Program-made: the position numbers and the translations under genes
The notes under the pieces: model-generated
Databases searched by the model: none
What the model was told of the DNA's origin: nothing
Seen by the model: the letters and a program-made list of their open reading frames with translations, nothing else
Shown here: positions 7,647 to 44,525 of the stretch, piece after piece
How positions within the stretch are numbered: position 1 is the first letter of the stretch
Layout: every line of letters starts with the position of its first letter
Assembly: GCA_946188165.1 (NCBI GenBank)
Contig: CAMHTW010000006.1
Coordinates: 33,658 to 97,657, forward strand
DNA length: 64,000 nucleotides
From: an uncultured Prevotella sp.
GTDB taxonomy: Bacteria > Bacteroidota > Bacteroidia > Bacteroidales > Bacteroidaceae
Reading direction: 5' to 3'

Positions 7647-7789
7647 CTTATAATCATTACATTTTTAATAAGATTCTCTGAAAATGGGAGACCACATGTC
7701 TCACGACATAAGTCTCCCGACTTATATAATAATACACGTATTGCCGACTCCGGCCTAACCCCAGAGGCCTCGAAGTACGGACTTAGATA

Positions 7790-7930
7790 CAACAGGCAGG
7801 TCTTCTGACTTACAGCCAGGGTGAACGTCTTCCCAAGAATATCAGTGACTTACAGTGTTCACCCCACTTAATAACTGCTTACAGCTGCGGGACAGTTGAG
7901 GACTCACACCTCATTCCCTTTTCCTGTTGC
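7790..7930 (-). promoter_or_regulatory. Cobalamin riboswitch controlling the B12 uptake operon
   Basis: Minus strand reads aaaagggaatgaggtgtgagtcctcaactgtcccgcagctgtaagc ... ggctgtaagtcagaagacctgcc, matching the conserved core and B12 box. Confidence 0.95.
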
Positions 7931-7935
7931 GCTTG

Positions 7936-7943
7936 CAAAGGTA
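7936..7943 (-). promoter_or_regulatory. Bacteroidetes -7 element (TAnnTTTG) for the B12 operon
   Basis: Plus caaaggta, minus TACCTTTG, just 5' of the riboswitch. Confidence 0.6.
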
Positions 7944-8036
7944 ATGTAAATCGAGCGAAAAACCAAAAGAAAGACAAGAATTTCTTGGTATTTCCCACTT
8001 TTTTTATTACTTTTGCACGGCAAAAACTAAGTTACA

Positions 8037-11609
<3,573 letters not shown>

Positions 11610-24335: not shown

Positions 24336-25639
24336 AGGTCTTGTAGCTTGATGTCCCTGGCACCTCGCAGATACTCACTGCGCAGTTCTATTGCTTTAGT
24401 CCATTCACCCTTGAACAACTCGCTCACATCAAGGTCAATCTTCCAGTGTCCTTTAGACTCCAGTCTGTCCACCAGAATGCCGTAAGTCAGATTGCTGATG
24501 TCTTCGGCAGGCATAAAGCGCGACGTCTCGCCCTTCTCGTCACCACTAATTTCTATCAGCAACTTGGCATCAATCAGTTCGTATAACAAATCGTTCACAA
24601 TACGGATAGGAATATTCGTCAGTCGACGCAGTTCATAGGCACTATATGCACGCTGTCCGTTGGAAAAGCGCTGGCATATCTTGCTCATCAGCAGCGCTGA
24701 CATCAGCAATTTGTAGCGATGACTAATCTCGCCCGTGTTTGCATCGTAGTCATAGTAGTCCAAGTTCTGATTCGTGTAGCACAACTCAGCACCAAACAGA
24801 CAGATAGTCCACGATATCTGCACCCACAGCATGAACAATGGCAAGGCGGCAAACGAACCGTAGATGGCGTTATAGCTTGACAGGAACATCTGCGAATGGA
24901 TGTAGAATATCTGCAGTCCCTGCATGGCAATACCTGCCAAAATGCCAGGCACCAGTGCACTCTTCAGTCTTACCCGCGTGTTAGGCATAAAGATGTATAG
25001 CGCAATAAACATGCCCGACATCAGCACGTAAGGCAACAGGTCTATCAACCATCTTACAAAGGGACCTAACAACAGGAAATTGGGTAGCGAGTTGGCCACT
25101 GTTGCCATAAAAATCGAGATACCTGACGTCAGCACGATGATGATGGGAAACAAGAAGAACATGGCCAAATAGTCGGTAAATGTGCGGAAAATGCTCCTTG
25201 GTTTCTTTACCTGCCATATCTCGTTGAAGGCATCCTCCACATTGCTTACCAGCATGAGCACCGTGTAAAGCATGAACACCAAGCCGACACCCAGGAACAC
25301 ACCACTCTGCGTGTGCACCAGATAACTGTTTACGAAGCCGATAATGATGTCGGCAGCCTGAGGTTGCGACTGGAAGGCATCCCTAAACCACACCTCGATA
25401 TACTTGTTGTAGCCAAAGCCGCGCGCAATGGCAAACACCACCGCCATAATTGGCACGATGGCCAGCAACATGCTATACGTCAACGCTGATGCTTTCTGCA
25501 TAACACGCTTCGCGGTAAAGAATCTGATAGCCAGCAGCAACTTCTTCAGCACCTCTAACAACAGATATTTTACTGGCGACACCTCGTCAGGACCTATACG
25601 CCAGATGTCCTTTTGCAAAAATTGAATCAGCTGTTTCAT
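24332..25639 (-). CDS. YihY/BrkB family inner-membrane protein
   Basis: ASALTYSMLLAIVPIMAVVFAIARGFGY and multi-TM pattern with C-terminal winged-helix-like region. Confidence 0.9.
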   Translation of the reverse strand: MKQLIQFLQKDIWRIGPDEVSPVKYLLLEVLKKLLLAIRFFTAKRVMQKASALTYSMLLAIVPIMAVVFAIARGFGYNKYIEVWFRDAFQSQPQAADIIIGFVNSYLVHTQSGVFLGVGLVFMLYTVLMLVSNVEDAFNEIWQVKKPRSIFRTFTDYLAMFFLFPIIIVLTSGISIFMATVANSLPNFLLLGPFVRWLIDLLPYVLMSGMFIALYIFMPNTRVRLKSALVPGILAGIAMQGLQIFYIHSQMFLSSYNAIYGSFAALPLFMLWVQISWTICLFGAELCYTNQNLDYYDYDANTGEISHRYKLLMSALLMSKICQRFSNGQRAYSAYELRRLTNIPIRIVNDLLYELIDAKLLIEISGDEKGETSRFMPAEDISNLTYGILVDRLESKGHWKIDLDVSELFKGEWTKAIELRSEYLRGARDIKLQDL

Positions 25640-25675
25640 GCACTATTTAATAACTCACTCTACACTAAAAAGAAA

Positions 25676-26038
25676 GCAGTGCCCCTGTAAGCCGGGTTCT
25701 GTACCCTTGCGGGCGTCTGTCATTTATCTACTACGCTGGTTACCCAGCGTCTCAAGCATCCTACCCTCCATCGTGTCCCGAAGAACTCGGACGGACAGCC
25801 CTCCGACGATGGTATACGCGAACTTGCAGCCTCCAGACGGAACAGCCCTACGATTACCCGCAGGCTGGTGGTCTCTTACACCACCTTCTCACCCTTACCC
25901 TTTCGGGCGGTTATTTTCTTCTCCCGTATCCTGCTGTCACCAACAGCTGGCACTTTCACCAGTGGAGCGTCCTATGCTGCCCGGACTTTCCTCTCGCACT
26001 CTAAAGAGTACCAGCGACAGACCGTTGCACTGCTTTCA
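25676..26038 (-). ncRNA. rnpB: RNase P RNA, class A
   Basis: Minus strand contains gagaggaaagtccgggc..., ggtaagggtgagaaggtggtgtaagagaccacca, and 3' acagaacccggcttacag. Confidence 0.95.
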
Positions 26039-26168
26039 GTTTGCAAATGTACATAAAAAGTTTGATACTGCAAAACTTTCGGGCAAAAAACACCTTCGGA
26101 CCGGCAAGAGCCAGCCCGAAGGAGAATGATGAAATTACACAAGAAGAGATATCCCTTCTGTGTCACAT

Positions 26169-26410
26169 TTATTTGCCTTTAAATACAACCGTGAAGGCGG
26201 CATTCACATTCTTGTTCCAGTCGTCTCCCTTCGGTATGGCGTTCCATTTCTTCTCGTTGGCAGACTTCAGACTGTCAGCACAGCCAAAGTATATCGTCTT
26301 CAGGCTGCTGCAGTCCATGAAGGCTCTGTTGCGGATTTCCTTCAGGCCGTAGGGCAGGGAGATTTCCTCAATGCTCATACCTTTGAAGCCCTCGGGGTCG
26401 ATTTCCTCGA
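26169..26410 (-). pseudogene. C-terminal remnant of a BspA-type leucine-rich repeat protein
   Basis: RIEEIDPEGFKGMSIEEISLPYGLKEIRNRAFMDCSSLKTIYFGC; frame closed by an upstream stop just before RIEE. Confidence 0.65.
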
Positions 26411-32057: not shown

Positions 32058-33035
32058 TCAGACATTTATGGAACCACAATGAGGGCAGGCTCCCTTCTGT
32101 TGTAGTGCGGCTCCACAGTTACCACAACGCAGAGAAGTGCGGGCATGTAGGACCCATCGCCTAAGGGCAAAGAAAATGTAGGCAGGAAGAAGAAAATAGC
32201 CAATATAGTATAGTGTCAGGATGCTAAATATAACATATAACACAGCGCAAACGGCACCAAGTCCGAAGAGGTAAAGAAGTGCATCAAAGGCCTGAAGACG
32301 ATGTATAGTATCGTCGACAGCAGCCACACCAACGATGATGATTGCCCATACGGAACTGACGAAAAGGCCAAGGGTAAAGGGAAGGTTGAAGGGATTGAGC
32401 GAAGGATGGAAATAGTAGTGTCGCCACTGCTCAGCACCGAAAGTCTGGATGGTGGCATAGGCTGTGGCGGAGCAGGCCATGAGAATACACAGCAGCGTGG
32501 GATAGAAGGAATCAATGTCGTTTAAATGCACAATATAGGCATTGCGTCGTAATAGTTTACGCATGGCATAGGCGCCACCTACGATAACACAAAAAGCCAG
32601 GAATACCAGCAGGTGGGTGTCAGAGAATACGTCGATGAATTGTGAAATGGGGTCATCAGGCGACACCGCATTCAGTAGTTCGCTCTCACGAATCCAGCCC
32701 TGAGTAATCTGGTCTCGAGCTACCTTTACCCATACAGAATCGATAGTATCCGTCGGAATAGTCTCAATATCAGCTACCACTATACGCTGTCCTTTCGTGA
32801 CATACATTGTATCGAAAGCCATATCGCCCTTACTATCAGCCAACGGCAACAACTCGGAGCGAACCAAGAAATTATAGTTCTGCGTGTAATGATGCGTCGT
32901 TGAGAAGGATATGGAGTCTATCTGCTGCTTGCTCAGGTCCCAGGCATCAGGTGTCTTCTGGCCGTGATTGTAGCACGCGCAGCACAAAACAGAAATCAGC
33001 AACCCTATGACAATCCTAACGAGACGCATACACAT
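32058..33035 (-). CDS. Membrane lipoprotein-like protein with C-terminal zinc ribbon
   Basis: LCCAC lipobox-like, several TMs, C-terminal CGNCGAALQQKGACPHCGSINV. Confidence 0.65.
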   Translation of the reverse strand: MCMRLVRIVIGLLISVLCCACYNHGQKTPDAWDLSKQQIDSISFSTTHHYTQNYNFLVRSELLPLADSKGDMAFDTMYVTKGQRIVVADIETIPTDTIDSVWVKVARDQITQGWIRESELLNAVSPDDPISQFIDVFSDTHLLVFLAFCVIVGGAYAMRKLLRRNAYIVHLNDIDSFYPTLLCILMACSATAYATIQTFGAEQWRHYYFHPSLNPFNLPFTLGLFVSSVWAIIIVGVAAVDDTIHRLQAFDALLYLFGLGAVCAVLYVIFSILTLYYIGYFLLPAYIFFALRRWVLHARTSLRCGNCGAALQQKGACPHCGSINV

Positions 33036-35767: not shown

Positions 35768-36514
35768 TTATTCCACATGGAAGACACAAACAGAAACATT
35801 ATCAAAACCACCAGCCTCAATAGCAGCTTCGCACAAAGCATTGGCAGTAGCTCCTTCATTCATCAGTTTCTCAATATCTTCGTGATCTACCATATCATTC
35901 AGTCCGTCAGAACACAACATATAGGTGTCGCCTGATAAGAAATCGGCAGTAAACTCATATAAATCGAGATAGGAATTCTTGCAGCCCGCACCAATACAGT
36001 TCGTAATAATATTGGAATGCTTTTTCTCACCATTGGCATTGCTGAGCGAATGGTCGGTAGATAACTGCACCAACTTTCCATCACGCAAGCGATATAAACG
36101 ACTGTCGCCACAATTGAACCAAAAGTACTTGCCACCATAATAGATAACACCAACCAAGGTCGTACCCATTTCATGCAGCGAGGGGTCGGAATTACCTCGA
36201 CGATTAATGGTTGTATTGATATATTCAAGCCACTCTAACATGGTCTCGTCAAACTCACCAATAGACAAGCCACGGGGAATGTCGTTTATAAAGAACTTCA
36301 AACTATCAAGCGTCTGCTCACTGGCTACCTCGCCAGCACGATGACCACCCATGCCATCAGCAAGAGCAATGACAAAGCGCTCATTGTTTTCAGTCATAAA
36401 TTCTGTACGATAGGCGTCACTACGCACAAACTTGTCATAAGCCAACACCATGTCTTCGTTATTGCTTCTAATACATCCTACGCGACTGGCTGATGTTAAT
36501 ACGATTCTACTCAT
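35768..36514 (-). CDS. PP2C-family Ser/Thr protein phosphatase
   Basis: SRVGCIRSNNEDM, IALADGMGGHRAGEVAS, CGDSRLYRLRDGKLVQLSTDHS, LCSDGLNDMV, DNVSVCV. Confidence 0.95.
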   Translation of the reverse strand: MSRIVLTSASRVGCIRSNNEDMVLAYDKFVRSDAYRTEFMTENNERFVIALADGMGGHRAGEVASEQTLDSLKFFINDIPRGLSIGEFDETMLEWLEYINTTINRRGNSDPSLHEMGTTLVGVIYYGGKYFWFNCGDSRLYRLRDGKLVQLSTDHSLSNANGEKKHSNIITNCIGAGCKNSYLDLYEFTADFLSGDTYMLCSDGLNDMVDHEDIEKLMNEGATANALCEAAIEAGGFDNVSVCVFHVE

Positions 36515-36551
36515 AATTATTACTAATCCTAAAACATCTTATATATTATCA

Positions 36552-37148
36552 TTAATTCACGCTAACTTGCAAATTTATATTTGCAAGGGTTACGATGTCA
36601 CCCGACTTAATAGACATAGGTACATCTGGAAGAAGATCGCGTTGATTAAGCTTTGTTCCGTTAGACGAATGCTTATCGATGATGCACCATCCAGTATCAG
36701 GTTTGTATATGAGCTGGGCATGAACACCGGAAATGAACATGTTGCCTTCAAACAATTGCTGATATGGACCTTGCCGACGACCAATAACAGCTCCATTCAC
36801 ACCAACTATGCGGATATCAAGTGATGGGTTGTAGAGGGTCAGCGAAGGTATACCGCTCTTGGTTGCTACAGGTTGCTGGGGCACATCAGGCTCAGGTTCA
36901 CGCAAAGAAGCTTGTGTCACCTGATTGAACGAGAGATTGGCAGCATTTATAGAAGCAGACATGGAAACGGCACTGGCCTCCTTCTTTCCCAAATTATCAG
37001 GACTAACCATCAACCCACCGCAATGAGTACAACGGCGACCTTTACCAACACGTCCGCAGTTAGTACAATACGCCAACTCTTGGCCACACTGGTCACAAAA
37101 GTGCGATCTTTCTTCTATCTCTTCTTTACAATTCGGACAGATTATCAT
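36552..37148 (-). CDS. Zinc-ribbon plus FHA domain protein
   Basis: CPNCKEEIEERSHFCDQCGQELAYCTNCGRVGKGRRCTHCG; FHA segment AVIGRRQGPYQQLFEGNMFISGVHAQLIYKPDTGWCIIDKHSSNGTKLN. Confidence 0.92.
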   Translation of the reverse strand: MIICPNCKEEIEERSHFCDQCGQELAYCTNCGRVGKGRRCTHCGGLMVSPDNLGKKEASAVSMSASINAANLSFNQVTQASLREPEPDVPQQPVATKSGIPSLTLYNPSLDIRIVGVNGAVIGRRQGPYQQLFEGNMFISGVHAQLIYKPDTGWCIIDKHSSNGTKLNQRDLLPDVPMSIKSGDIVTLANINLQVSVN

Positions 37149-40100
37149 ATATTCTCATTAATATCTTCTGGCATAATCATTTGATAAGTCTCTGGCGTTA
37201 CCTCCGACTGATTCATCTGGCTAACACGCATAGAAAGTTGCTGGATGGTCTGATCGAGCATGTTGCGCATCTCACGGGCGTTGCCGAAGGATTCTGACTT
37301 GTTGACCACAATACGACAGATAACATCCATCAGTTTGAATTCTGCCTCAGGCGACAGCTTGTAGTTGTCCTTCTGAGCCATCTTCTTGTAGATAGCCAAC
37401 AACTCGTCTTCATTATAGTCATCGATATGCATTTTGTGAGAGAAGCGGCTGGCCAAACCTGGATTGACAGCCAAGAAGGTTTCCATCTCATCCTTATAGC
37501 CGGCAGCAATCACCACAAACTTGCCACGATCATCCTCCATACGTTTCATCAGCGTATCGATAGCTTCCTTACCATACTGGTCATTCTCAGATGAAAGTGT
37601 GTAGGCCTCATCGATAAACAGGATACCACCCATAGCCTTGTCGCAAATGTTGTTGACAATCTTCGGTGTCTCACCCATATATTTACCAACCAACGTAGCA
37701 CGACTGGCCTCAATCACACGGCTGGTGGGAAGAATCTCCATAGCTTGCAAAATTTCACCCATCTTACGAGCAACAGACGTCTTACCTGTACCAGGATTAC
37801 CTGTCAGGATGAAGTTCATAGACATCTGCTGAACCTTACCGGCACCCATAGCAGCACGTTGCTTCATGAACATACTCTGTACTGCCAGACGACGAATCAT
37901 GTTCTTCACTGAACGCATACCGATAAACTCGTCGAGTTCGTTGAGGACCTCGTCGAGTGGACGAGCCTTCTCACTCTGAGCAACCTCAAGGTCAGCACTG
38001 GTAATACGATACATATCATCGTCCTTAAAGTCAGGATTACCCATCATGCTTACAAGACGTTGGCTCTGTTTCTCGACAGCCTGATCAAAGATCCTGCGTG
38101 CCTCACGGGCATTACCAAAGTTCTTGTCACGACGCAAATAAAGCTGCTCGAACTGACGATGAATAGTACCCTGAGTTTCTTCGTCCACAGTAAAGTTCTT
38201 ATCCTTACAGAGGTTGAGGAATATCTGCGTGAGTTCGTCGGGTGTGTAGTCGTCGAAGTGGATAGTTTGTGTGAAACGGCTCTTCAATCCAGGGTTAGAA
38301 TCGATAAAGTCATGCATGTTGTCAGTATAACCAGCAACAATACAAATGAACTTGCCACGATCATCCTCCAAACGCTTGAGCAAGGTATCGATGGCTTCAG
38401 CGCCAAACGAATCTTGATCATTAGACTTCAGTGTATAGGCCTCATCGATGAACAGCACACCACCCATAGCAGAATCAATCAACTGGTTGGTCTTGATGGC
38501 AGTCTGACCAGCAAAACCTGCAACCAGCTTAGAACGGTCTGCCTCTATCAACTGTCCACGTGAAAGAATGCCTAAAGTACGGAAGACATCTGCCATGATA
38601 CGAGCCACGGTAGTCTTACCTGTACCAGGATTACCAGAGAATACATAGTGCTTGCCCTGGAATGTATTGGTTTCTCCACGACGAATCTGAAGATTGAGGA
38701 AGGCTGCTAAGTTCGAAATTTCCTTCTTGACAGCAGCCAAGCCAACCATACCGTTGAGTTTGGCCAGACATTCTGTATAATCGACAGCCTTTGGAGCATC
38801 GTAAGGAATGTCAGCAACATCAATTGTCATCAACTGCTCGTTGCTGAGTGTAGATATGTCAACCTTTTGCATGCGCTCTGCCTGCTTGGTGCAAATCTTC
38901 TCAAACAACTGACGCATAGTGCGACCATTGGCAAAGTCCTTATCACGCGAATTATACAACTCGGTAATCATCTTCAGCGTCAACTCACGAGCCTCAGGTG
39001 TAAACTGATATTTCTTGTCGCTGGCAAACACTTCCATAATCTGGAACAGCTGATCGGGATTGTAGTCCTCGATATTCAGGAAATAACTGAAACGGCTGCG
39101 TACACCTGGATTGATTCTGAACAGGTTTTCCATCTCTGTGCGATAGCCTGCTGCAATGACAATAAACTTGCCTCGGTCGTCCTCCATGCGCTTCATCAGC
39201 GTTTCCAAAGCCTGTGTACCCTGCTGGTCACGTTCGCCACCACTACTGAGGGGCACCAAAGTATAAGCCTCGTCGACAAAGAGAATACCACCCATGGCCT
39301 TGTCACACAAACGGTCAACTACCTTAGGTGTCTCGCCCTGATACGGACTAATCATCTTAGAACGGTCTACCTCAACAACATGACCACTGTCCAGATATCC
39401 GATAGCCTCCATGATTTCACCTAACTTACGGGCTATGGTCGTCTTACCAGTACCAGGATTACCTGTCAGTACGATATGAATACCTGCCTTCTCCTGTTCG
39501 CCTAGTCCACGTTGTGCACGTTGTACATTGTTGTGAACAGTGAAAGCTATCTCGCGAACAGCCTTCTTCACCTCGTCCATACCAATATAATGGTCGAGAT
39601 CGCTCAAGATGTCCTCCAGCGTTCTTTCTACTGGTACATAACCACGAATATCGGTTTCCTCTATCATGGTGGCTTGAGAGCCACGGCTGATAAACGACGT
39701 AAAGATATCTTCGGCAGTTTTCACAGCCAAATGGGCATAACCAAAAGTATCGTCCTTGATTTTCACCTGATATTGGAAGAAACGCAACAACTTACGTTCT
39801 GCCTCAGGAGAAAAAGCGGAGAGTCCATATTTTGATTGTAGCTCCTGTTTACAGATATCACACAATTCCGTATAGCCTGGTGTTGGCAGACGGAACATAT
39901 ATTTGAAGCGGTTCTGTGCAGCAGGATTGGCAGACAGGAAATCGTCAAGTCCCTTGGGCAAACCAGCAATCATCACAATAGGATTCTCATCCCATTTGTC
40001 CATCTCAACAAATAGTTTGTCAAGTGGGTTTACTTGATTCGAATAACGATCTGGGAGAAGTTTCTGGACATTATCAAAGAACAGGATACCTCCTCTGGCA

Positions 40101-40462
40101 TTCTTGACGTTTTCATCCCATTTCTCGACGAAACGCTGATAGTCAACAGCATCAACCATCGTCAACTTAGGATTCTCAATAATCTTGTGCTGATAGAAGT
40201 AGTCGCGTATCACCTCTGCCAATGCCGTCTTACCTGTACCCGTCTCACCAATAATAATGGTATTCACGCTAAGGCGCACATTCATCACGTCCCTGCGCGA
40301 ATGGAGATAAGTATAAGTGTCAACAACTGTTTTCAGCTGCTGCTTTACCTCATCAAGCCCCACCATACGGTCAAGCACATTGAGGGATACAAGCTGGTGT
40401 CCACACCACTTACAGAACTTCGCTATCGAGCGGTTTTCTTTATGACATTGCTCACAAATCAT
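37145..40462 (-). CDS. Zinc-ribbon protein with four CbxX/CfqX-type AAA modules
   Basis: CEQCHKENRSIAKFCKWCG; Walker A GETGTGKT then GNPGTGKT three times; Walker B FFDNVQ then DEAYTL three times. Confidence 0.93.
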   Translation of the reverse strand: MICEQCHKENRSIAKFCKWCGHQLVSLNVLDRMVGLDEVKQQLKTVVDTYTYLHSRRDVMNVRLSVNTIIIGETGTGKTALAEVIRDYFYQHKIIENPKLTMVDAVDYQRFVEKWDENVKNARGGILFFDNVQKLLPDRYSNQVNPLDKLFVEMDKWDENPIVMIAGLPKGLDDFLSANPAAQNRFKYMFRLPTPGYTELCDICKQELQSKYGLSAFSPEAERKLLRFFQYQVKIKDDTFGYAHLAVKTAEDIFTSFISRGSQATMIEETDIRGYVPVERTLEDILSDLDHYIGMDEVKKAVREIAFTVHNNVQRAQRGLGEQEKAGIHIVLTGNPGTGKTTIARKLGEIMEAIGYLDSGHVVEVDRSKMISPYQGETPKVVDRLCDKAMGGILFVDEAYTLVPLSSGGERDQQGTQALETLMKRMEDDRGKFIVIAAGYRTEMENLFRINPGVRSRFSYFLNIEDYNPDQLFQIMEVFASDKKYQFTPEARELTLKMITELYNSRDKDFANGRTMRQLFEKICTKQAERMQKVDISTLSNEQLMTIDVADIPYDAPKAVDYTECLAKLNGMVGLAAVKKEISNLAAFLNLQIRRGETNTFQGKHYVFSGNPGTGKTTVARIMADVFRTLGILSRGQLIEADRSKLVAGFAGQTAIKTNQLIDSAMGGVLFIDEAYTLKSNDQDSFGAEAIDTLLKRLEDDRGKFICIVAGYTDNMHDFIDSNPGLKSRFTQTIHFDDYTPDELTQIFLNLCKDKNFTVDEETQGTIHRQFEQLYLRRDKNFGNAREARRIFDQAVEKQSQRLVSMMGNPDFKDDDMYRITSADLEVAQSEKARPLDEVLNELDEFIGMRSVKNMIRRLAVQSMFMKQRAAMGAGKVQQMSMNFILTGNPGTGKTSVARKMGEILQAMEILPTSRVIEASRATLVGKYMGETPKIVNNICDKAMGGILFIDEAYTLSSENDQYGKEAIDTLMKRMEDDRGKFVVIAAGYKDEMETFLAVNPGLASRFSHKMHIDDYNEDELLAIYKKMAQKDNYKLSPEAEFKLMDVICRIVVNKSESFGNAREMRNMLDQTIQQLSMRVSQMNQSEVTPETYQMIMPEDINENI

Positions 40463-40465
40463 AAC

Positions 40466-43400
40466 TTATTCTGCATCATTATCATTTTGTATCTGGTCGA
40501 CAACTTCTGTAGTCTGAACCTTAATCTTTTTGCCGATGTCAGACTTATTAATATTCAACAAGTTTGGACTGAAGACTACCAACTCAGCCACCAACATGCC
40601 CATCATCAAACTCCATAGAATATAGTGAATCACAGACTCACCACTGATAGAGCGAACCTGATTAGCCACGTCGTCAAGCAGGCCAAACTTAGAGCCTTTG
40701 AAACGGAATGACCTCTGCTTGAAAGTGAAATAGAGTGGTTCCAACAGTGTAGACTTGATATCATGGTCATCCATTACCTCACTTACCAACTGGCTGTCAC
40801 TCTTAGTCACGCTACGATAGTCTGTAAAGTGACATATTATAATATATATTAAGGTAATGACAACAATTGCTGGTACAAACATGCTGGGGAAAGATCCATT
40901 CACATAGCGTAATACCGTTACTGGTATCCATGCAGAAAGGTAACCTATCAATCCCCAAAGGCTGGAAATGAGGAAGCCATAGCCTCGGAAATATGCTCTG
41001 GAGGCTAAAATCAATGCGGTAGCTCCTCCCACTGGAACACCTATCGTCAGCATGGGATGCTGTAGAACATACTCTTTAGACGGTACGCCAAAGATCATTA
41101 CCAACAGCAACCATACAGCAGCTAATCCAAAGAACATGCCACGCCATAATTGTTCCTTACGCTTGGCCTGGAAGTAGCTTTGACGAACTTCCTGATACTT
41201 GTTGGCAGTTTGCTTACGAGCATCACAGAAGCGTTTGTAGAATTTATGATGAGCGTCTATCTCGCCTATCTCATTAATCCACTCCTCCAACTTATGCTCG
41301 TAGCTATATGTTTCCAGGAATTCATTATGAGGGTCTTCATGATAGAACACAGACATCCATTGGCACAAAGAGCCACGCTTGATGGCCGCCAACAACTGTG
41401 GTCTGTAAGCCAACTTATCTACAGTTTGGGGCGATTTCAATATAGTACCATCCTCCAACTGATACGAAGGAATAGCACCTAGAATACGACAGAAACGATA
41501 GGCAGCTGTACGCAAATCGTATGCGCCTAAACGTTCGCGATTCTCTTCACTCTTCAGGTCAAAGCAGGCACGTGCCTGACTGATCTGATCTATCCAACCA
41601 TGTAACTGAGCGAAATAGAAGAAACGTCCATTGGGGTCATTATAATCTGACACCTTCTCAGCAAATGCAATATCATCGAGCGACTGCCAACCAATGAGTT
41701 GACGAGCCATCACTTCGCCCACTTTATATGGTGTATCAGCATCGCGCAAATCATAAGCAGCCTCTCGATCCAGATTATAAAGCACCTTATAGGCCAACGA
41801 ACGTGTAGGCTTTTGTCCTTGTGTCATAATGCGCAAAGCCTCACAGGCCATAGCATCCTCACGACAATACATCCATGAAAGCAAACGACCATCAGTCAAA
41901 CTGTTCCATTCGTCATCACTACAGTTCTCGTAACCAAACGAATGGGTTATCTCTTCAACAGTAGAAGATGGAAATTTAGCCAAGAAAGGAATATCCCTGT
42001 CTATCTCGTATACCAATCGGAGCACAGCCACGCGCCCGTCATAGTTGGCATCAGCAGTAAAATAACTACGCAAGCGACTGACATCAGCTTTGCTGTGAGA
42101 TTCCAAATACAGGAATAAACGGTCGTTTGGATTAACCAACGATAGCGCATATTCCTCTTGATAACTTAAGACTGAAATAGCCAGACTGTGGATATCGTCA
42201 CATTTATTACCCTTAATATCCTCATAAGGATAGGTCGGTTCCATCATATAGATAGCAGACATCAGACCTGCCATCTGGTCAGCCGGATATCTGTTAACCA
42301 CAATATCCTTGACAGCCGAACTCAGTTTTACATTACCACACTGTTCCAGCCAACCAGCTATTCGTCCGTTATAAAGATAGCTGCACGACAGGCGTTCATT
42401 ATCAAGCAACAGCGGAATAAGTTCATGGACATTATCAGCAACCAGGTTGCGCTCAGGATCGACAACAAAGCTACGATACTTAAGCAAGGGCGACGTGACA
42501 TCAACACTCACATCCTCGCCCAAGAACCAGCGTTCCACTTCGTCATAGCCCCAGCGGCTCTGCGGATTGACGGCTGTCAGACCCATGACAATCATCTTGA
42601 CACGCTCAGGCAGTTCGTTGATACGAGGCAGACGACCTTCGTTCTTCTTACGCATCATGACACGCTCATTCTGGCTCAACGGATTCTCTCCCAACCAGAG
42701 TGTCATCAAGGTAATACCCAAGGAATAGAAATCGACAGCTGGTGTGATTTCCACCTCGCCATCAATCACGTCATTGTACATTTCAGGGGCAGCATACACA
42801 GGTGTACGAGCCTGAGTAGTACGATGCACCTTCTCGTCATTTTCCATCACACTTGAGATACCGAAGTCGCCTAGTACTATCTCTTTATGCTTCGTGTCAC
42901 GGAAGAAATAGTTACCAGGTTTGATATCCTTGTGAATCACATTGTTCTGATGACAGTAAGCCAAGGCTGCAGCAGCCTGCAATGCAATACGACGGAATTG
43001 GTTGAAGTCGCCGTCCAAGTCATAATCACTCAACGTACCACCGCGAAGATACTCCATCAGTTCATAATCGCGATTCTTTCCGTCAACATAAGTCTTACCA
43101 TAGTCTATAATCTTGACTATCATCTCCATGTTGAAGTTCTGAATGATACGCATCAGTGTCTTCTTAATCGTGAAGTTCGGATAGTATATCTTCAATACCT
43201 TCTCGCCTTCATTATTCGCAACAAGGAACACCTGTGCCTCACCAGAATTATCACTGATGCACCTGATACTACGATATGCTCTCCCCTTCAGGATGAAGTC
43301 GGTACCACCATCAGTCTCCATGTAGACAGCAGCAGTTCCTGGTTTTACTGTGGTCTCATTGTTCGCTGAGGAACCAGAAGTACGCTGAGGACTAACAACA

Positions 43401-43483
43401 CGGATAGTCGCAGACATATCTTGAGGTACTGCTGTTTGCTGGGGATTTGTGGCCGGATCGGGCTTACGTATGGTCTCGTCCAT
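40466..43483 (-). CDS. Membrane-anchored Ser/Thr protein kinase
   Basis: VIHKDIKPGNYFF, LGDFGISS, PVYAAPEM; C-terminal TM cluster (LWRGMFFGLAAVWLLLVMIFGVP...). Confidence 0.93.
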   Translation of the reverse strand: MDETIRKPDPATNPQQTAVPQDMSATIRVVSPQRTSGSSANNETTVKPGTAAVYMETDGGTDFILKGRAYRSIRCISDNSGEAQVFLVANNEGEKVLKIYYPNFTIKKTLMRIIQNFNMEMIVKIIDYGKTYVDGKNRDYELMEYLRGGTLSDYDLDGDFNQFRRIALQAAAALAYCHQNNVIHKDIKPGNYFFRDTKHKEIVLGDFGISSVMENDEKVHRTTQARTPVYAAPEMYNDVIDGEVEITPAVDFYSLGITLMTLWLGENPLSQNERVMMRKKNEGRLPRINELPERVKMIVMGLTAVNPQSRWGYDEVERWFLGEDVSVDVTSPLLKYRSFVVDPERNLVADNVHELIPLLLDNERLSCSYLYNGRIAGWLEQCGNVKLSSAVKDIVVNRYPADQMAGLMSAIYMMEPTYPYEDIKGNKCDDIHSLAISVLSYQEEYALSLVNPNDRLFLYLESHSKADVSRLRSYFTADANYDGRVAVLRLVYEIDRDIPFLAKFPSSTVEEITHSFGYENCSDDEWNSLTDGRLLSWMYCREDAMACEALRIMTQGQKPTRSLAYKVLYNLDREAAYDLRDADTPYKVGEVMARQLIGWQSLDDIAFAEKVSDYNDPNGRFFYFAQLHGWIDQISQARACFDLKSEENRERLGAYDLRTAAYRFCRILGAIPSYQLEDGTILKSPQTVDKLAYRPQLLAAIKRGSLCQWMSVFYHEDPHNEFLETYSYEHKLEEWINEIGEIDAHHKFYKRFCDARKQTANKYQEVRQSYFQAKRKEQLWRGMFFGLAAVWLLLVMIFGVPSKEYVLQHPMLTIGVPVGGATALILASRAYFRGYGFLISSLWGLIGYLSAWIPVTVLRYVNGSFPSMFVPAIVVITLIYIIICHFTDYRSVTKSDSQLVSEVMDDHDIKSTLLEPLYFTFKQRSFRFKGSKFGLLDDVANQVRSISGESVIHYILWSLMMGMLVAELVVFSPNLLNINKSDIGKKIKVQTTEVVDQIQNDNDAE

Positions 43484-43485
43484 AT

Positions 43486-44433
43486 TTATTTATCATCTTT
43501 TATTTCCGCTGAACTATTCTTGCCTAACACAACCCATTTACCTCCAAGATGGGGCTTGGCACAACCACATGGGCTGCTGTGCATGGCATGCTTATAGTTG
43601 CACACCCATGCCAGCCTCACGCCTGTTGGCTTGCTGGCCATCGCATAATTGCGCGCCTTAACTGGAGATGATGAAGGGGGAACGGCCAATTTCTCAAGTA
43701 TGGCCGAAAGCATCTTGACTTTGACTGCTTTCTGGTCTTCCAACTCCTCCTTCGTCATTCTATTTGACTCTATCTTGGGAATAACAGGTATTTCAACACC
43801 TTCGTCTTGTTGCAACAAAGTGAGCACTCGCTCGCGTAATTTCTGACAATTCTGCTCACGAACGACATCACGTTCAGAAGTATACGGCAGAACGTTCTCC
43901 AGTTTCGAGTAGTCTTGCACGATTTCCATCAACTGCTGATAGTCCGGATTCTTCTCCAACTGCTTGACCATCTGTTTGGCCTCTTCCGTCAAGGCTGTAC
44001 CGCATTTCTTGCAGAAAGCAAAATCGTTGAGTGAGTGACAGGTGGGGCACACCAAACCGCCTCTGGGACTACCGCACTCAGGACAATAGGCTTCAATACC
44101 AGACAAATGAGAACCACAAAAAGAGCACACATCTTTGCGGATATAGTGGTGACAAACTTCACAGAAATCAGCATCAGCGTCAACTTCAGCACCACAATGA
44201 GGGCACGTCATCTTGCTGATAGGTTGTCCGCACTGTGCACAGAACAATGCCTCAAGTTCATTGATAGCTCCACAATAGGGGCATTCCTTGCCAGCAGCCT
44301 GCTGTTGCCTTTGCTGCTGCATCATTTGAGGAATCGGTTGCTCACTCATTTGCGGGCGTATTGTCCGCTGCAGCATTTCCTGCGGCCTTACCGTCCTCTC
44401 CATTGGTCCAAAATTAGAAATATTGTCGTTCAT
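43486..44433 (-). CDS. Multi-zinc-ribbon protein at the head of the kinase/phosphatase operon
   Basis: Series of CxxC pairs: CPYCGAINELEALFCAQCG, CPHCGAEVDADADFCEVCH, CSFCGSHLSGIEAYCPECG, CPTCHSLNDFAFCKKCG. Confidence 0.9.
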   Translation of the reverse strand: MNDNISNFGPMERTVRPQEMLQRTIRPQMSEQPIPQMMQQQRQQQAAGKECPYCGAINELEALFCAQCGQPISKMTCPHCGAEVDADADFCEVCHHYIRKDVCSFCGSHLSGIEAYCPECGSPRGGLVCPTCHSLNDFAFCKKCGTALTEEAKQMVKQLEKNPDYQQLMEIVQDYSKLENVLPYTSERDVVREQNCQKLRERVLTLLQQDEGVEIPVIPKIESNRMTKEELEDQKAVKVKMLSAILEKLAVPPSSSPVKARNYAMASKPTGVRLAWVCNYKHAMHSSPCGCAKPHLGGKWVVLGKNSSAEIKDDK

Positions 44434-44461: not shown

Positions 44462-44490
44462 CAAAGTTACACATTTTTTTTTATTACAAA
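44462..44490 (-). promoter_or_regulatory. Promoter for the signalling operon
   Basis: Minus strand TTTG - 17 bp - TAACTTTG (44469..44462). Confidence 0.55.
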
Positions 44491-44492
44491 GA

Positions 44493-44525
44493 AAAAACCG
44501 CCGTAAATTTATATTTACGACGGCA
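44493..44525 (-). terminator. Hairpin terminator downstream of the M13 peptidase gene
   Basis: Minus strand gccgtcgtaaatataaatttacggcggTTTTTT. Confidence 0.75.

Follow-up and report, generated by a model that had tools for sequence, protein, structure and literature searches.

In the threonine phosphorylation pathway of the type VI secretion system (T6SS; PpkA, PppA and Fha), a membrane protein carries in its N-terminal tail a threonine that is phosphorylated in a kinase-dependent way, and the Fha protein binds to this phospho-threonine (PMC3953482). The same trio of a kinase, a PP2C phosphatase and an FHA protein is found in the cassette described here, a set of five genes on the minus strand of a 64,000-nucleotide stretch of DNA (the window) from an uncultured rumen Prevotella sp. 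(contig CAMHTW010000006.1). In comparison with the T6SS pathway, the cassette adds a tandem AAA machine and a scaffold-like zinc-ribbon protein, and the target that is read seems to be an array in the kinase's own tail; no T6SS genes were recognised in its surroundings, and a sheath gene is lacking in 15 of the 16 carriers. We consider it probable that the cassette is a self-contained, membrane-anchored AAA remodelling module that is switched by phosphorylation.

Other described systems share parts of this set. Modules 2-4 of the AAA protein resemble CbbX, the red-type Rubisco activase, and EccA of the type VII secretion system (T7SS) in sequence, in the Walker A and B motifs, in the AAA_lid_6 domain and in fold. 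In contrast with these, the cassette proteins have three to five tandem modules in a single chain, an N-terminal zinc ribbon and a conserved first module that lacks the catalytic glutamate, and no Rubisco or T7SS genes are adjacent. The T7SS partners EccC, WXG100 and mycosin were not found by Pfam among the neighbours of the window cassette, the neighbours of the distant cassettes being only partly identified. The actinobacterial GAP1-N2 systems are kinase-PP2C-vWA sets with zinc-ribbon kinases and, like the cassette, bring a kinase, a PP2C, a zinc ribbon and transmembrane helices into a single neighbourhood; the excerpted text of that source describes no FHA-AAA pair, while the cassette has no GTPase, GAP1 or vWA component (PMC7159879). 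The likeness to the MADS defence system (MAD6 kinase, MAD8 ATPase) consists of kinase and AAA domain matches. The MAD6 NCBIfam model scores 79 against a cut-off of 460, however, and no methyltransferase or specificity genes lie beside the cassette. Membership of MADS or PD-T4-6 was not found: the kinase domain alone aligned, and the partner genes are absent from the immediate flanks. An earlier note on this DNA, made from the letters alone, had set its reading against that of a known annotated system, and no such gene order was found within the libraries searched. A description of the five-gene set was likewise not found in the open-licence full-text literature, where absence is no proof.

The cassette and its inheritance

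The genes are transcribed in the order ZNR (zinc-ribbon protein; 43486-44433, minus strand, 315 aa), KIN (kinase; 40466-43483, minus strand, 1005 aa), AAA (37145-40462, minus strand, 1105 aa), FHA (36552-37148, minus strand, 198 aa) and PP2C (35768-36514, minus strand, 248 aa). They are separated by 2 bp (ZNR-KIN), 3 bp (KIN-AAA), a 4-bp overlap (AAA-FHA) and 37 bp (FHA-PP2C). ORF coordinates and domain searches returned the five frames, their strand, spacings and domains just as the earlier note had given them. The frames do not arise by chance, since 21 relatives whose cassettes are complete encode these proteins at 52-98% identity.

A first scan, covering one genome per bacterial species, detected the kinase gene at 23 loci of rumen-type Prevotella (57-96% identity). 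The five genes, their order and their place are unchanged in 21 of these; the remaining two lie on short contigs that break off within the cassette. Fourteen further complete cassettes, in other genera and families and also in a second class of the phylum, keep the order ZNR-KIN-AAA-FHA-PP2C, with kinase identities among the order-conserving loci as low as 25-34%. Kinase relatives (26-59% identity) occur in 13 further genomes of the family, which with the window's own makes 14 of 201 genomes and 6 of 30 genera, and in 9 of 164 genomes of the second class. A ZNR profile, used as an independent query, was positive in the same 14 family genomes and negative in the other 187, so that KIN and ZNR are either both present or both absent in 201 of 201; in a phylum-wide sample ZNR was found in 7 of 396 genomes. 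The reading of the earlier note depended on co-conservation of the genes beyond close relatives. As the order is kept across families and into the second class, and KIN and ZNR are inherited all or none, this test favours the finding.

The kinase tree contains two deep cassette lineages inside the window's family. All five gene trees recover the Prevotella-type and the divergent-Bacteroidales clades, and the second-class clade is recovered by four of them, the AAA tree being the exception. Several cassettes outside Prevotella lie in unrelated surroundings (loci L045, L063, L064, L066, L073, L074, L076, L082 and L086-L088). In the cassette-free congeners L105, L107, L109 and L111 the M13 peptidase gene and metA, which flank the cassette in the window, are directly adjacent, and the unit has therefore been gained or lost as a block. 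A recurrent sixth gene was not found around the cassettes.

Individual loci depart from this pattern. At L085, in the same genus (G500 C2:2500-22400), no PP2C seems to lie between FHA and metA, and the aligned kinase stretch is reported to contain a TGA; this cassette appears to be decaying. In two second-class genomes, SUKH (SMI1/KNR4) genes lie inside or directly after the cassette (L063:9289-10083 and L066:10445-10966). At L089 (356-5173) the place of ZNR beside the kinase is taken by a large TPR protein that also has a SAM domain and weak matches to NTPases, and a large TPR protein also adjoins the kinase at L090 (2756-6433).

The threonine motif and the five proteins

The N-terminal tail of the kinase is otherwise unconserved in length and sequence but carries 2-7 copies of the motif [D/E]-x-T-[I/V]-[R/K], many of them with P or V after it. 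In the window the tail reads DETIRKP...ATIRV...TTVKP; elsewhere it contains DKTLKP repeats (L045), DDKTIR-type repeats (L063) or EKTIR/DKTIR five times (L066). The window tail (residues 1-61; 43301-43483, minus strand) is predicted to be disordered (pLDDT < 50) and has T[IV][RK] sites at Thr4, Thr26 and Thr45. Despite the variable tail, Thr26 and Thr45 are invariant in the 22 sequences of the Prevotella set, and Thr4, Asp2 and Arg6 are nearly so; the start methionine aside, the invariant tail residues of this set are threonines only. With homologues counted as independent, the tails of 45 kinases contain 117 matches to T[ILVM][RK], compared with 7.9 in shuffled tails. The remainder of the same proteins, although fifteen-fold longer, contains 53; the density is about 40 matches for every 1000 aa of tail and 1.2 for every 1000 aa of body. 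The motif recurs in three separated clades (the Prevotella type, the L045/L076 type and the second-class type); apart from it, their tails cannot be aligned.

The strict motif also exceeds expectation in two partner proteins, with 7 found for 1.1 expected in FHA and 7 for 2.0 in ZNR (89 for 8.3 in KIN). AAA (14 for 13.3) and PP2C (2 for 1.4) show no such excess, and the motif is therefore specific to certain cassette members. In six second-class cassettes (L063, L064, L066, L086, L087 and L088) the FHA protein ends in the strict motif, with the threonine always fourth from the end. In ZNR the motif lies in the N-terminal tail (residues 12-29, ERTVRPQ/QRTIRPQ; 44347-44400, minus strand), where Thr14 and Thr24 are candidate phosphorylation sites of the TVRP/TIRP type; it is present in most rumen Prevotella only. 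A search of the window's own genome for further clients with the P-ending form of the motif gave 21 sites against 25 in a reversed control, and hence no genome-wide enrichment.

The FHA protein contains an FHA domain (8.5e-12) and a double zinc ribbon (2e-7). Its predicted phospho-threonine pocket is intact (GRR, S-x-x-H, SSNG): an alignment of 16 homologues keeps GR, S and H throughout, and NG everywhere except in L076, which has WG. Since the pocket is intact and the motif occurs in KIN, FHA and ZNR, the economical reading is that the cassette has a phospho-threonine docking code of its own, and [DE]xT[IV][RK] is a strong candidate for the element that the FHA protein would read.

KIN is a Hanks-type Ser/Thr kinase (Pkinase, 1.2e-31, Pfam) with intact HKDIKPGN, DFG and APE motifs. 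In a diverse alignment K98, D186, K188, N191, DFG 206-208 and PE 233-234 are invariant. The C-terminal part has five transmembrane segments (782-800, 810-828, 837-855, 868-886 and 954-972), at positions conserved in most homologues, and with the intact catalytic residues these bear out the membrane Ser/Thr kinase proposed in the earlier note. The middle of the protein (352-745) is helical, and the AlphaFold model as a whole is of low confidence (57.6). A PASTA kinase of the PknB/PrkC type is not indicated: Pfam finds no PASTA domain, and NF033483 gives 74 against 450 bits. The PP2C protein is a metal-dependent Ser/Thr phosphatase (PP2C_2, 1.8e-12; Stp1-like model, 3e-46) in which ADGMGGH, GDSR, SDGLND and FDN are intact and the metal sites are kept in the alignment.

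ZNR matches Pfam DZR (4.9e-17) and has a series of CxxC zinc-ribbon half sites. Its C-terminal motif, W-x-C-N-x(5,6)-H-x2-P-x2-C-[AG]-x-P-x2-GG-x-W, is invariant in a 15-member alignment and is likely to be a zinc-binding signature of the family. Zinc ribbons are conserved throughout on three of the five proteins (FHA, AAA and ZNR). The earlier note had suggested these shared ribbons as an assembly or docking code; their conservation holds and a role in assembly is compatible with it, though unproven, and the threonine motif is the sharper candidate for such a code.

The AAA protein (37145-40462, minus strand) has an N-terminal zinc ribbon and four AAA modules, seen as four Pfam AAA stretches with a CbbX-type lid (AAA_lid_6). 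Modules 2-4 are canonical for the CbbX/EccA type, with GNPGTGKT, DEAYTL, the pore-loop aromatic Y/F-x-G and the arginine finger SRF. Module 1 is divergent: Walker A is present, and Walker B reads FFDN, with DN and not DE; the DN is kept in the second-class homologues too. By analogy with CbbX and EccA, modules 2-4 would be expected to hydrolyse ATP and thread a client, with module 1 regulatory and probably non-hydrolysing. Among solved structures, EccA1 (9lur) and CbbX (3syk) come nearest in sequence, and CbbX in fold. Scores against CbbX-like models (TIGR02881, 796 against a cut-off of 423; TIGR03922, 712 against 467; TIGR02880, 638 against 459) are summed over the four modules, and assign the domain family only and not an equivalog function.

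The four modules of the earlier note are thus present in the window protein, the first of them divergent, but four is not a fixed number. Homologues have three (L073, L089), mostly four, or five modules (L063, L066, L087, L088; about 1390 aa), which disfavours a dynein-like, fixed in-chain ring. The predicted model is good for each module, but with a pTM of 0.39 it does not allow the relative arrangement of the modules, in plane or stacked, to be read.

Tandem CbbX-type AAA proteins of about 790-940 aa are also found in other Bacteroidales families (L007-L018, L020), with none of the four partner genes in the neighbourhoods read; these are apparently a separate, stand-alone family. The window's genome has, in addition, a lone CbbX-type AAA gene (G000:C47:18887-19684; 378-aa open frame, 43% to module 3). 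AAA matches on plasmids were rejected as cassettes, the three neighbourhoods read (in Calothrix, Peptoclostridium and Bacteroides finegoldii) showing other CbbX-type proteins without the partners.

Control region and surroundings

A putative promoter of the Bacteroidota type, TTTG-N17-TAACTTTG, lies 28 bp ahead of the ZNR start codon (44462-44490, minus strand), where the earlier note had seen a promoter-like site. The assignment gains from conservation elsewhere: of 36 cassettes, 30 have the -7 element ahead of ZNR, compared with 13% of shuffles, and 16 have the full -33/-7 promoter, compared with 0.5%. Immediately beyond it is a terminator-like hairpin (44497-44524, minus strand; 12 stem pairs, then TTTTTTC), which ends the upstream M13 peptidase gene and may insulate the cassette from it. 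As the terminator scan overall was at shuffle level (9 against 8.4), this call is based on the strength of the single site.

According to the Pfam assignments of the neighbours, both flanks are housekeeping genes, with M13 peptidase and ABC-F upstream, and metA (homoserine O-succinyltransferase) and a U32 peptidase downstream. The start of metA is on the same strand, 35 bp past the end of PP2C, and transcription at this site may therefore continue into housekeeping genes. A membrane protein with a single C-terminal zinc ribbon (32058-33035, minus strand) adjoins the U32 peptidase gene in both cassette-bearing and cassette-free relatives. Elsewhere in the window, a cobalamin riboswitch (7778-7982, minus strand) precedes a minus-strand ORF of 678 aa, back to back with metH (8037-11609, plus strand), and the class A RNase P RNA (25672-26033, minus strand) is overlapped by mechanically called ORFs at 25638-26352.

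Proposed mechanism and alternatives

The earlier note had proposed a single self-contained unit of writer, eraser, reader and AAA machine, and with the catalytic and pocket residues of KIN, PP2C and FHA intact and the order conserved, this proposal stands. From the genes and their order, the all-or-none inheritance, the catalytic residues, the membrane segments and the motif array, all of which are read from sequence, we infer a cycle of motif phosphorylation, FHA binding, zinc-ribbon assembly and client remodelling. The kinase, with its five transmembrane segments, would sense the state of the membrane or periplasm and autophosphorylate the [DE]xT[IV][RK] threonines of its tail, as well as matching sites in ZNR (Prevotella) or at the FHA C-terminus (second-class lineage). 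The FHA domain would then bind the phospho-threonines and gather the zinc-ribbon proteins (FHA, AAA and ZNR) at the kinase. The assembled CbbX/EccA-type protein, with three active threading modules and one regulatory module, would pull on a client encoded outside the cassette, and PP2C would strip the phosphates and reset the module.

Several observations weigh against this mechanism. The shuffle statistics for the motif ignore the kinship of the homologues, and its occurrence at the C-terminus of FHA and in the tail of ZNR is restricted to particular lineages. At L073 and L074 the kinase tail has another tandem repeat, HATGKAVRG, and the tails of L078, L079, L082 and L084 have no match to the motif or relaxed forms only. 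Three cassettes (L083, L085 and L089) apparently have no PP2C, and L089 has no ZNR either. The middle region of the kinase gave no match to a structural (PDB) fold.

It has to be considered that the cassette is a phage-defence or interbacterial conflict system, with the kinase as the sensor of infection and the AAA machine as the executor of the response. Such a role would fit the patchy, all-or-none presence in 14 of 201 family genomes, the SUKH genes (of the immunity type) in L063 and L066 and the SAM-TPR protein that replaces ZNR in L089. PADLOC matches the kinase to mad6 and PD-T4-6 and the AAA protein to IetA and mad8, but these matches are limited to generic kinase and ATPase domains. 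Moreover, the Prevotella cassettes occupy a single fixed housekeeping site and no defence island, Pfam finds no nuclease or toxin domain in the window cassette, and the searches gave 0 matches in phage records and, in plasmids, one weak match to the kinase domain only. We regard a defence role as unlikely.

The tail motif may alternatively be no FHA ligand but an autoinhibitory segment of the kinase, a docking site for PP2C or a binding site for the AAA protein or the zinc ribbons, in which case the unit would be real but wired differently. Some cassettes do keep FHA without the strict motif, and the arginine at +2 is more constant than any residue at +3, the invariant threonines of the tail, beside a kinase and an FHA gene, and the six FHA proteins that end in the same motif standing on the other side; this alternative seems quite improbable. 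Threonine-phosphorylation control (PpkA/PppA/Fha-like) of a T6SS encoded elsewhere is highly improbable and as a general role is rejected, for although the writer, eraser and reader are shared with that pathway (PMC3953482) and a TssC gene of the T6SS-iii type occurs in the window's genome (G000:C50:10603-11874), which would allow a link in this strain, both sheath families are absent from 15 of 16 carriers (PF05943 in 0/16, PF17541 in 1/16), no T6SS genes were recognised in the cassette neighbourhoods read and the FHA protein scores 27.4 bits against a cut-off of 120 for TIGR03354 (TagH), in agreement with the earlier note, which had not tied the cassette to a T6SS.

The phosphorylation-switched AAA module thus remains the preferred interpretation. 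The chances appear evenly balanced that it represents a new kind of bacterial phospho-switch, in which the phospho-threonine array of a membrane kinase is itself the platform for an FHA protein and an AAA motor of three to five modules, the whole being stand-alone, inherited as a block in Bacteroidota and provided with a defined linear docking code. Rumen bacteria and a distant class would then hold, in a small operon, a closed signalling circuit of writer, eraser, reader and machine with an explicit docking motif that can be tested. The variation in module number is relevant to the assembly of tandem AAA chains, and the circuit would extend control by FHA proteins and kinases past secretion systems to a stand-alone AAA machine.

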